Below are positions 20,384 to 24,265 of a stretch of DNA of 64,000 bases, piece after piece. Below the pieces are notes generated by a model. The model ran no database searches, was not told the DNA's origin, and was given only the letters and a program-made list of their open reading frames with translations. This DNA is from Armatimonadota bacterium (GTDB taxonomy: Bacteria > Armatimonadota > Zipacnadia > JAUWAU01). The stretch covers positions 124,001 through 188,000 of the forward strand of contig JAUWAU010000004.1 of assembly GCA_030601885.1 (NCBI GenBank), written 5' to 3'. Numbering within the stretch: the first letter of the stretch is position 1; each line of letters starts with the position of its first letter. The position numbers and the translations under genes are program-made.

Positions 20384-21739
20384 TCACCCACCAGCCACGT
20401 CGCACGCTCCGATAAGCTCTGCCGTTGCCGGGAAATGCTGCCGCACCACGCTGAAGACCTCGTCGGAAAAACGGCGATACACGCCAATGACTTCCGATAC
20501 GGGCGCACCGTACGCAACGCCGTCCACCAGTTCCGGGTACTGCAGGAGGAGTTGATCGTCATCGGAGATTGCGAAGTGTGCGGCGAGCATGAGCAGCTCC
20601 ACGAGGTTGGCGAAGGCGTCGCTGTCGCCGTGGGCGAGCGGGTCGGCAAGAATGTCAATCATGTACGCTTCGTCCGGCAGCCCGGCCGCGAGCATCGATA
20701 TGCGCCGCAGCAGACACGGGACGCAGCCGCCGCATGGCCGCGGCGTCCGGCCGATCTGCCAGCACGAGACGCTCTTCTGGATCTGATCGATGGAGAGCGT
20801 TGGTCGTAGCACGTCGCGTATGATCTCGGCCTTGGTCTGGTTCTGGAACGGATTCATCACGAGCACGCGGCGAGCGAGGACGCGCGTTGCCAGCTTCGCG
20901 ACCATCGCCAGCAGTCGCGGGTGATTGCCACGGGTGGAGAGGCTGCCGATGCGGGCTCTCGTGGCCGGCAGGTGGGAGGCCAGGATGCCGTTCTCGAAGG
21001 CGCAGACCTCGTCGAGCCCCGCGGCGTCTGCAGCGGCGATTGCCGCGGCCAGGAAAAGGAAGGCCCTGGAACGCTGCGATGGCTCGCGGTCGTCCTCGGC
21101 GGGGAACGGAGTTGCGGGCTCGCGGACGCGCGATGGGCCCAAGAAGACGTCCACACGGGTGAGCGTGGCGCCGAATGCGCGTGCGAGAGAGCTTGTGACC
21201 TCTCGCTGAGCGCCGTCCACGGACGGGCTGCCCGAGGAGTGGCTCACGAGCAACGGGCGCCTATTGGCCTTCAGCAGCGCCGCGGCTCCCGCGAACGAGT
21301 CTATGCCGCCGGACAGCAAGCAGACGCAGTCAACGTCGGGGATCTCCGGTTTAGCTTTGGCCGGCTTCGCCGCCGGCCGCGCGCAGAAGGAGAAGCCGAC
21401 GTTGTCGCCGGTCAAGAAGTGCACGATGCGCTCCAGTTCGCCGCTGCACTGCTGCCAGAAGGGCGGGTCGCGAACCGGCACGCATATACTCAGGTCCCGC
21501 AGCCACGCCTCGTTCTCGCCACGCCGCAGGCCGATGTCCGTCATGAGCGTGACGGCGGCGATCTCCAGCAGGTCAAGTGCCCGGGGACTGGCTCGCTCGG
21601 CGATGAGCTCGTGAGGCCGGAGGGTGACGTTGCGCTGCTCGCTGTGCAGCTCGATAGTGAGGGACGGCTCAGAGTTGCCCAATGCTCGGGGATGCTCCGA
21701 AGATTGTGGAGGCGCGCCGGCAGCACTTCTAGCCGGCAT
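20384..21739 (-). CDS. qatC: QueC-like PP-loop enzyme, QatC-type
   Basis: A 451-residue protein of the QueC (7-cyano-7-deazaguanine synthase) superfamily, longer than QueC, with an N-terminal extension of about 130 residues. The PP-loop SGGIDS is at residues 143-148. The QueC zinc site is complete: C326, C336, C339 and C342 (CGGCVPC). This length and the preceding MGTS-starting partner match QatC of the QatABCD anti-phage system rather than housekeeping QueC. I chose the ATG at 21739 because GGGAGGAAGG precedes it; it overlaps the qatB-like stop by 11 bases. An SDR follows after 6 bases instead of qatD. Confidence 0.75.
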   Translation of the reverse strand: MPARSAAGAPPQSSEHPRALGNSEPSLTIELHSEQRNVTLRPHELIAERASPRALDLLEIAAVTLMTDIGLRRGENEAWLRDLSICVPVRDPPFWQQCSGELERIVHFLTGDNVGFSFCARPAAKPAKAKPEIPDVDCVCLLSGGIDSFAGAAALLKANRRPLLVSHSSGSPSVDGAQREVTSSLARAFGATLTRVDVFLGPSRVREPATPFPAEDDREPSQRSRAFLFLAAAIAAADAAGLDEVCAFENGILASHLPATRARIGSLSTRGNHPRLLAMVAKLATRVLARRVLVMNPFQNQTKAEIIRDVLRPTLSIDQIQKSVSCWQIGRTPRPCGGCVPCLLRRISMLAAGLPDEAYMIDILADPLAHGDSDAFANLVELLMLAAHFAISDDDQLLLQYPELVDGVAYGAPVSEVIGVYRRFSDEVFSVVRQHFPATAELIGACDVAGG

Positions 21740-22382
21740 CCTCGCCTTCCTCCCGGACAAGATGCTCAAGAGCTCGTGGTACTACGTCGCTGAGGAGCTG
21801 CGCGATCTCCTCTTCCTCTTCGGCTACCTCCAGCTCCGCCAGCGTGAGAGCATTCACTTCCTCGACCACATGGGCCTCCGTCGCGTGCACGAATTCCCCG
21901 GCCTCCGCAATAGAGGTGAACCGACCGCGGCCAACGTAGCGGCTAATGTCGCGCCCGACTATGTGCGCGAACAGGTGCGCCAGATATGTTCCCAGGAAGG
22001 CGCGCGCAAGTGGCATGCCCGGCGGTCGGCGGCTGCTTGCCAGGACCGTCTGCGTGGCTGCCGCGAGGGCGATTTCGCCGAACCTGGACGCGTCGCGGCG
22101 GGCAGCCGTGGTCTCCACCACCTCTTCCCGCAGCGAGCAGGCGACCGCGACGAGTTGCGCCTGATCCCCGGACGCCACCACCACCTCGCTGGAGTGCGCC
22201 AGCAAGCTCCGAAGCACCCGGGCCACCGGGGCGCCCGAGAGGCCGGCGATGAAATCCTTGTCCATGGCCTGGACGATGCGCGTAACTGCCGCCGAAGGTC
22301 CAACATCCGGCTCAATGTACGCTCGTCTCACCGCCCGCCATCCGGCACCGCGAGGCGACGGCTGCGAAGCCGACGTACCCAT
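21729..22382 (-). CDS. qatB: QatB-like protein
   Basis: A 217-residue protein with no enzymatic motif. Its N-terminus, MGTSASQPSPRGAGWRAVRR, matches the MGTS-x-S start I associate with QatB. An all-helical body follows (RVLRSLLAHSSEVVVASGD, then LARAFLGTYLAHLFAHIVG) and an acidic tail. It directly precedes and overlaps the QueC-like gene, the qatB-qatC order of the Qat system. A recognisable ATP-binding QatA upstream is missing. The assignment rests on the N-terminal motif plus context; the body is too divergent to be sure by eye. Confidence 0.6.
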   Translation of the reverse strand: MGTSASQPSPRGAGWRAVRRAYIEPDVGPSAAVTRIVQAMDKDFIAGLSGAPVARVLRSLLAHSSEVVVASGDQAQLVAVACSLREEVVETTAARRDASRFGEIALAAATQTVLASSRRPPGMPLARAFLGTYLAHLFAHIVGRDISRYVGRGRFTSIAEAGEFVHATEAHVVEEVNALTLAELEVAEEEEEIAQLLSDVVPRALEHLVREEGEDAG

Positions 22383-22879: not shown

Positions 22880-24265
22880 ATGGACAAGGTGCTTTGCCCC
22901 CACTGCGGGGCTGAGAACATCAAGTCCTCCATCATCACGACGTGCACGCGCTGCCTGGAGTCGCTTGAGGGCGCCAGGTCGGCTCCCACGGATCTGCCTG
23001 CCGCACGGGCCACATGGCCTCCAGGCCAGGCCGCGTCACCACCATCGGCCCCAGCTCCGAATGCCGTCGGGGACTCACCGGCCCTTTTCACGCAACCGTC
23101 CGACCAACCGCGGACGAGCCCGACGACGGCCGTTCCCGGCGCAGCACAGCTCTCGCAAGGCGTGCGGGGCTGCGGGGCAACGGCAGCCATTGCCGGAGTC
23201 GCCCTGTTCTTTTTGTTCGTACTGGCGGGCGTTCTCTGGGTTGTGTTCGGCGCACGCCCGCTCCTCGTCATCGGCTCGGGGATCGTGGTCATCGCCGGCC
23301 TGGCAGTGGGCATCTACATTCTTCGGATCCGGATCGCGAGCAGCTTCTACGAGGCCGTCATCGATCAGCCGCCGGGACAGTTGCTCCTGGGTGAGTCCTT
23401 CGAGGCCGGGCTGACTATCCGCGCGAGGCGCGACATGCGTCTGGGAGACGCCGAGGCTGTGCTGCAGTGCGAGGAGCACGCCATCGCCCGCGGCGGCACC
23501 AGCGACACCCACTACCGCAAAACCATCTTCGAGCAGGCGTACTCCCTGGGCGGAGAGCGCGACCTCAGGCTCGGCGAGGAGGCCGCACTGCGCACGAAGA
23601 TCACCATCCCGTCCGCGGCGATACCCACGCTCCGCGGAAAGAACAACTTCATCGAGTGGAAGCTGCGGCTCACCGTTCCCATCCCCGGCTACTGCCCCGA
23701 CATGCGGGAGGAGTTCGAGTTCCAGGTGAGGCCGCGAATGGCGCACGGCTCGGCACGGAGCCTGGCAAAGGACGCCTCGATCCCCGAAGAGTGGCTCGGG
23801 GAGACCAAGGTGCGCGACAAGCCGCACGAAGTCCGGGGAGTGCACGCCGAGCTGGCGGCCGCGGACGGGGCCACCGCGCAGGGACTTCCGGCCATGTCCG
23901 TCGGCGCAACGCGAAAGCTCAACCTGACGCTCCGCACCGACGAGGACATTCACTGTCGGGGCGTGCTATGCTGGGTCGGGTCTCGGATACATGGCTCGGG
24001 GACAGACGAGGAGGTCGTGCTGGACGAAGAATACCTCATCCACGAGGGCGACTTCCGGATGGCGCATCCCATCAGCCACTCGATCACGGTCAGCATCCCG
24101 TCGAGTGGCCCCGTGACCTTCATCGGCCGCTACGTGAAGTGCGAGTGGATGGTACGCGTGCGCGTTGATATTCCCCTGTGGCGAGACAAACGAATACAGT
24201 TGCCCATTGTGGTGACCCCGGGGCTCATCGTAGAGCGCGAGCGAGAGCCTCGGCCGCCGTTCTGA
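22880..24265 (+). CDS. Zinc-ribbon membrane protein with arrestin-like domain
   Basis: A 461-residue protein in four parts. Residues 1-30 form a zinc ribbon (LCPHCGAENI, TTCTRCLESL). A Pro/Ala-rich linker of about 60 residues follows. Two adjacent membrane helices lie near residues 100-150 (AGVALFFLFVLAGVLWVVFG, then LLVIGSGIVVIAGLAVGIYI). The long beta-rich C-terminus (FEAGLTIRARRDMRLGDAEA, LRLTVPIPGYCPDMREEFEF) resembles an arrestin/SpoOM-type sandwich. The ribbon and sandwich would face the same side of the membrane. The function is unknown. Its 3' end overlaps the convergent ATPase gene by 41 bases. Confidence 0.75.
   Translation: MDKVLCPHCGAENIKSSIITTCTRCLESLEGARSAPTDLPAARATWPPGQAASPPSAPAPNAVGDSPALFTQPSDQPRTSPTTAVPGAAQLSQGVRGCGATAAIAGVALFFLFVLAGVLWVVFGARPLLVIGSGIVVIAGLAVGIYILRIRIASSFYEAVIDQPPGQLLLGESFEAGLTIRARRDMRLGDAEAVLQCEEHAIARGGTSDTHYRKTIFEQAYSLGGERDLRLGEEAALRTKITIPSAAIPTLRGKNNFIEWKLRLTVPIPGYCPDMREEFEFQVRPRMAHGSARSLAKDASIPEEWLGETKVRDKPHEVRGVHAELAAADGATAQGLPAMSVGATRKLNLTLRTDEDIHCRGVLCWVGSRIHGSGTDEEVVLDEEYLIHEGDFRMAHPISHSITVSIPSSGPVTFIGRYVKCEWMVRVRVDIPLWRDKRIQLPIVVTPGLIVEREREPRPPF

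Follow-up and report, generated by a model that had tools for sequence, protein, structure and literature searches.

The QatB and QatC proteins of the qatABCD system are the closest described relatives of the gene pair analyzed here. According to PMC13279940, canonical QatC binds QatB 1:1 with ATP in the QatC site, and the tail of QatB is predicted to enter the QatC active site. Function requires Gly2 of QatB and the active-site residues of QatC, and QatBC alone, without QatA and QatD, defends E. coli against lambda (PMC13279940). The structure authors were unable to reconstitute the QatC reaction and found the CDG-recognizing residues replaced (PMC13279940); the reaction is a proposal even for canonical QatC. 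In the P. aeruginosa enzyme, T278 and T280 are the "invariant" pocket threonines (loop STRTTHP). PMC13329287 reports that only about a third of the QatC-cluster genes adjoin qatA; therefore, finding QatC apart from QatA is no novelty by itself. Two other enzymes invite comparison. Cap9 of type IV CBASS is a QueC-fold enzyme acting on the N-terminal glycine of an adjacently encoded partner, as described in PMC11996544 and PMC13279940; it is about 185 aa long, keeps the QueC pocket, and has a CD-NTase as its partner. QueC itself has the PP-loop and zinc core (Pfam PF06508) in common with the enzyme studied here.

Organization of the Gene Pair

The pair lies in a window of 64,000 nucleotides (the whole stretch of DNA analyzed) from a member of Candidatus Zipacnadia, also called candidate division WS1, a class of the phylum Armatimonadota. 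Both genes are open on the minus strand where the original prediction had placed them, and the SGGIDS motif, the complete zinc site, and the MGTSAS start that it had named were all found (Table 1). The N terminus of the partner reads MGTSASQPSP. For the enzyme, the longer open reading frame of 461 aa exceeds the length of its relatives (about 450 aa), indicating that the ATG is the better start. In the numbering of the longer frame, SGGIDS occupies residues 153-158 and the zinc-site cysteines are C336, C346, C349, and C352. The overlap of the two genes likely couples their translation. A short-chain dehydrogenase/reductase (SDR) gene begins 6 bases past the stop of the qatC-like gene on the same strand, and 497 bases separate the start of the partner from a divergent ORF at 22880; both distances agree with those given originally.

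Table 1. Coordinates of the gene pair and its sequence features in the window, and of related operons at other loci
Feature	Position	Strand	Basis or remark
QatB-like partner, 217 aa, starts MGTSASQPSPRGAGW	21729..22382	-	open frame
Partner N-terminal 22 codons, MGTS....SP....W..V...Y	22317..22382	-	invariant columns in 29 proteins
QatC-like enzyme, 451 aa	20384..21739	-	from ATG 21739; stop at 20384
Alternative longer QatC-like ORF, 461 aa	from TTG 21769	-	
Overlap of partner and QatC-like genes, 11 bases	21729..21739	-	sequence
GGGAGG ribosome-binding site, QatC-like gene	21749..21754	-	9 bases 5' of ATG
SGGIDS ATP pyrophosphate loop, QatC-like enzyme	21296..21313	-	SGGxDS invariant in alignments
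Pocket loop STRGNHP, QatC-like enzyme	20918..20938	-	alignment with 9zee QatC; tally of the loop at class loci
Zinc site CWQIGRTPRPCGGCVPC, QatC-like enzyme	20714..20764	-	four cysteines invariant in relatives
Four-gene operon, locus L059	6890-10321	-	
Four-gene operon, locus L105	6357-9775	+	
Four-gene operon, locus L109	6359-9769	+	

Set against qatABCD as described in PMC13279940, the pair has the same kind of enzyme, a QatC type with N- and C-terminal extensions, an ATP loop, and four zinc cysteines, and the same arrangement, an overlapping upstream MGTS partner with Pro and Trp in its tail, in the order B then C. The differences are as follows: the window pair has no qatA or qatD, the core of its partner is very divergent and the tail short, and the pocket loop, STRGNHP in the window and mostly ST[RH]STHP in the class, departs from the canonical STRTTHP. 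Moreover, the pair is a vertically inherited core gene of its class, whereas qatABCD is a rare accessory system.

The Enzyme Belongs With QatC

The enzyme matched the PADLOC QatC model with an E value of 2e-61 and the NCBIfam QatC model NF041925 with 2.5e-67 (227.5 bits, below the equivalog cut-off of 280), and a PDB sequence search matched it to solved QatC chains with an E value of 7e-37. Its AlphaFold model (pLDDT 86), in which a QueC-like core with N- and C-terminal extensions is predicted to adopt the QatC fold, aligned over its full length with 9y01_B, the QatC of the crystal QatB-QatC complex (E 4e-23; TM 0.70/0.75). The fold matches to Cap9 (E 7e-6) and to QueC (3e-4 to 2e-3) both ranked behind QatC; the window enzyme further differs from Cap9 in its length and in the predicted all-helical structure of its partner. 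The ATP loop and zinc site are intact, and the residues that define them do not vary among relatives. In the pocket, the enzyme retains the first threonine of canonical QatC and has glycine in place of the second; at this second position, most of the class has Ser, and families f3, f4, and f7 have Thr. Family models, sequence, and fold thus agree with the predicted assignment: the enzyme groups with QatC rather than with the housekeeping QueC.

A housekeeping QueC-type role, in which the enzyme would make preQ0 or a related base, is scarcely conceivable. The enzyme does pass the Pfam QueC cut-off with 33.6 bits, but its best matches by far are QatC proteins, the genome holds two separate QueC genes, one of them beside QueD, and QatC-type pocket motifs replace those of QueC (motif list in PMC13329287). 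With 451 aa, the enzyme is twice as long as QueC (about 220 aa); STRGNHP stands where QueC has a YPDC-type pocket, and no que genes lie nearby. The two QueC genes of the window genome are on different contigs: that on contig C69 (L193) adjoins queD, and that on contig C71 (L194) is solitary and stronger scoring.

The Partner Carries a QatB-Type N Terminus

One outcome that had been named in advance as refuting the original reading, the lack of a QatB profile match, did occur. The QatB family models of PADLOC and NCBIfam matched neither the window partner nor any of its 29 relatives, and model NF041924 had 0 matches in the class. No Pfam model recognized the window partner, which also had no CD-NTase match, and PDB sequence searches with the partner, as a single sequence or as a profile, returned nothing credible. 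The predicted QatB-type start fared better. An MGTS gene lies directly upstream of the enzyme in 34/34 class loci for which upstream sequence was available, which is not chance. Residues M1, G2, T3, S4, S9, P10, W15, V18, and Y22 are invariant in the 29 aligned relatives, and mean identity is 71% over the first 22 columns vs 35% elsewhere, making the tail the most conserved stretch. Pro and Trp also occupy the positions of P10 and W15 in the canonical QatBs of L060 and L063, both of which are short tailed.

Profile-profile comparison of the partner with canonical QatB gave 79-84%, mainly from the tail. With only the cores compared, the signal was weak, with E values of 0.01-0.06 vs 0.15-0.86 in eight column shuffles. 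The model of the partner showed a confident all-helical fold (pLDDT 93.6), and Foldseek returned weak helical-bundle matches, with no QatB chain among the best 50 of 294. Since the library contains the QatB-QatC complex, the missing QatB match among these best 50 is mildly against similarity of the cores. The core of the partner is only marginally detectable as QatB, and the protein is therefore named QatB-like, not QatB; it is tied to QatB by the motif at its N terminus, the place of its gene, the enzyme with which it is paired, and the weak profile-profile match. Longer versions occur in family f2, where three of the four QatB-like proteins read reach about 430 aa (L049, 6626-7912; L058, 4073-5383; L075, 2371-3660).

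The Pair Lies Among Ordinary Genes Without qatA or qatD

As predicted, qatA and qatD are absent from the neighborhood. Neither QatA nor QatD was found at the window locus or at any class locus, and both were found at the canonical control loci L060, L063, L111, and L129, indicating that the pair is not a qatABCD system. The proposed search of the whole window genome for qatA returned KAP NTPase (qatA type) matches that all stayed below the cut-off; the KAP proteins of other class genomes sit away from the pair.

The neighbors of the pair are ordinary genes, conserved inside families and different between them. In the window, they are plsX, yceD, plsY, and der; family f5 has an acetyltransferase, a PPIase, and a PGA_cap protein, and family f2 has a KaiC-like protein. 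The pair of family f8 is located about 1.6-3 kb away from dnaA (L039, L040, L042, L044, and L077; confirmed by Pfam in L040), which is followed by genes that, read by eye, resemble dnaN and recF, suggesting that this is probably the replication-origin region.

The SDR gene is very unlikely to be a third component of the system. Its six-base spacing on the same strand of the window would suit such a role, but a search of the other class loci, which belong to families other than the window's own, detected no homologue of the window SDR close to the pair, and in NCBIfam this SDR matched best to a hopanoid-associated epimerase, far below the cut-off. The association suggested for the SDR thus does not extend to the class, and because the gene is not conserved beside the pair, it is not part of the module; the link may be restricted to the window's own family.

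The Pair Is Vertically Inherited in Candidatus Zipacnadia

Homologues of the enzyme were searched for in 151 related genomes (46 in the class and 105 in the rest of the phylum), all of them metagenome assembled. In the contig scan, a single-protein query gave 0 matches and an alignment-based query succeeded. A homologue was present in 39/46 class genomes vs 5/105 elsewhere in the phylum (Fisher p 2e-23), and in 24 of the 25 class genomes at least 90% complete; the near-complete genome G006 (96%) is without the pair. The enzyme is single copy in the class, except in two genomes with an extra divergent long-form protein.

Inheritance was tested by building trees for 29 genomes from the concatenated pair and from RpoB. 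The two trees had 18/26 splits in common, compared with at most 3 in 2000 label shuffles, and the pair tree recovered 16/17 well-supported RpoB splits without strong conflict. A QatC tree that included outgroups placed the class in a monophyletic group (96/89) and canonical qatABCD proteins outside it; the sister of the class was a three-member group, L059/L105/L109 (97/87). These results establish the pair as a vertically inherited, near-universal two-gene unit of the class.

The original prediction had called the locus a possible stripped-down or recruited defense module. Recruitment fits better than expected, but a local stripping down does not, since the two-gene state is class-wide and vertical. 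That the pair is a decaying remnant of qatABCD after the loss of qatA and qatD is extremely unlikely. The two genes are indeed missing, and the window partner, at 217 aa, is shorter than most of its relatives (about 250-259 aa); against this, the sites are intact, dN/dS was 0.14-0.25 in three species pairs of relatives, and the tree of the two-gene unit tracks the species tree. A remnant of this kind is contradicted by the class-wide conservation of the pair.

The defense part of the prediction was also unsupported, since the distribution and neighbors of the pair resemble those of a core gene. Its near-universal presence, its descent by vertical inheritance, and the ordinary genes around it point to a function resident in the cell, be it housekeeping or built-in immunity, rather than to a mobile defense island. 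It is nevertheless a real possibility, if short of a probable one, that a minimal QatBC is still anti-phage and serves as a constitutive defense stably inherited by the class. Such a role would accord with the sufficiency of QatBC without QatA/QatD against lambda in E. coli, as stated in PMC13279940, and with the defense islands in which the sister operon sits. However, defense genes are normally patchy: canonical QatB was found in 4/291 genomes of the phylum and 4/369 genomes of a gammaproteobacterial sample. The class loci have ordinary neighbors, and no relative was found in viral contigs. A search of plasmids with a canonical QatB as query gave no match. We consider it probable that a two-gene QatB/QatC-type module was present early in Candidatus Zipacnadia, has descended vertically since, with QatC modifying the glycine of its partner, and is now resident. 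The pair is a clear case of a normally rare defense core that behaves as a vertically inherited core gene.

Proposed Reaction and the Attached Group

By analogy with what has been published on canonical QatBC, the two proteins of the resident pair most likely form a complex in which glycine 2 of the partner becomes modified. Because the enzyme has the canonical architecture and the first residues of the partner are extremely conserved, the canonical reaction is the most economical reading. The QatC-like enzyme would bind the MGTS-starting partner, whose start methionine would be removed to expose the N-terminal glycine. The enzyme would then activate a small carboxylate-bearing molecule with ATP, and the amine of the glycine would attack the activated carboxylate, joining the group to glycine 2, the presumed acceptor. 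The modified partner would act without QatA, QatD, or a linked effector. The N-terminal glycine had been predicted as the relevant site, and the canonical QatB mutants in PMC13279940 lend support to this choice.

Most class genomes encode QueC and QueD elsewhere; hence, CDG, a queuosine precursor, should be available there. In family f4, however, G003 (98% complete) and G005 (90%) had no QueD match and no true QueC, yet both keep a QatC-like enzyme (L056 and L073) whose ATP loop, zinc site, and pocket loop are all intact. The MGTS partner is present in G003, and the G005 contig ends before it. The persistence of the f4 enzyme without detectable QueC/QueD argues against CDG as an obligatory donor, a hint drawn from gene content that salvage or missed genes could also account for. 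For QueE, model TIGR03365 lies too far from the class proteins to decide presence, since it also misses genomes that have QueC and QueD; the argument on CDG rests on QueC and QueD. We put forward, tentatively, that an immune QatBC pair was domesticated by the whole class and now serves a core function, in which it modifies the N terminus of a resident protein by conjugating a group that is not CDG. A natural two-gene version that lacks accessory enzymes and is retained throughout a class offers a simpler object for finding the modification made by QatC.

A Related Four-Gene Operon and Other QatC-Like Proteins

The nearest relatives outside the class belong to a four-gene operon, nuclease-QatB-QatC-Y, present in three phyla (L059, L105, and L109). 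Its first protein (311-319 aa) has weak matches to FokI-cleavage or type II restriction nuclease models; a short QatB-like protein starting MGTSVN (186-195 aa), a QatC-like enzyme (425-430 aa), and a downstream gene Y of about 205 aa without known family follow. Eco57I-type restriction-modification, AbiE, TIR-like, and sacsin-like genes lie around it. The operon resembles the class pair in its partner (profile match 99.3%) and in the sister position of its enzyme, and differs in the nuclease-like gene upstream, in Y downstream, in its defense-island setting, and in having been found here only singly. Its occurrence with a FokI-like nuclease points to QatBC as a portable module for modification, used with different effectors or none. 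We found no name for this operon. Neither it, nor a class-wide vertical two-gene unit, nor persistence of the pair without QueC/QueD is described in the accessible text of PMC13279940 and PMC13329287 or in the one paper found that names Zipacnadia, bioRxiv and most subscription papers being outside the scope.

Longer QatC-like proteins (about 570-720 aa) make up a large group of their own, spread over many phyla (L061, L062, L064, L065, L108, L110, L112-L128, and others); no MGTS gene, qatA, or qatD was detected adjacent to its members. L153, placed among the canonical controls, grouped with these long proteins, and qatA/qatD were not detected there; its placement leaves the results for the class and its sister unchanged. 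The class genomes G001 and G036 carry a long QatC-like protein besides the resident pair.
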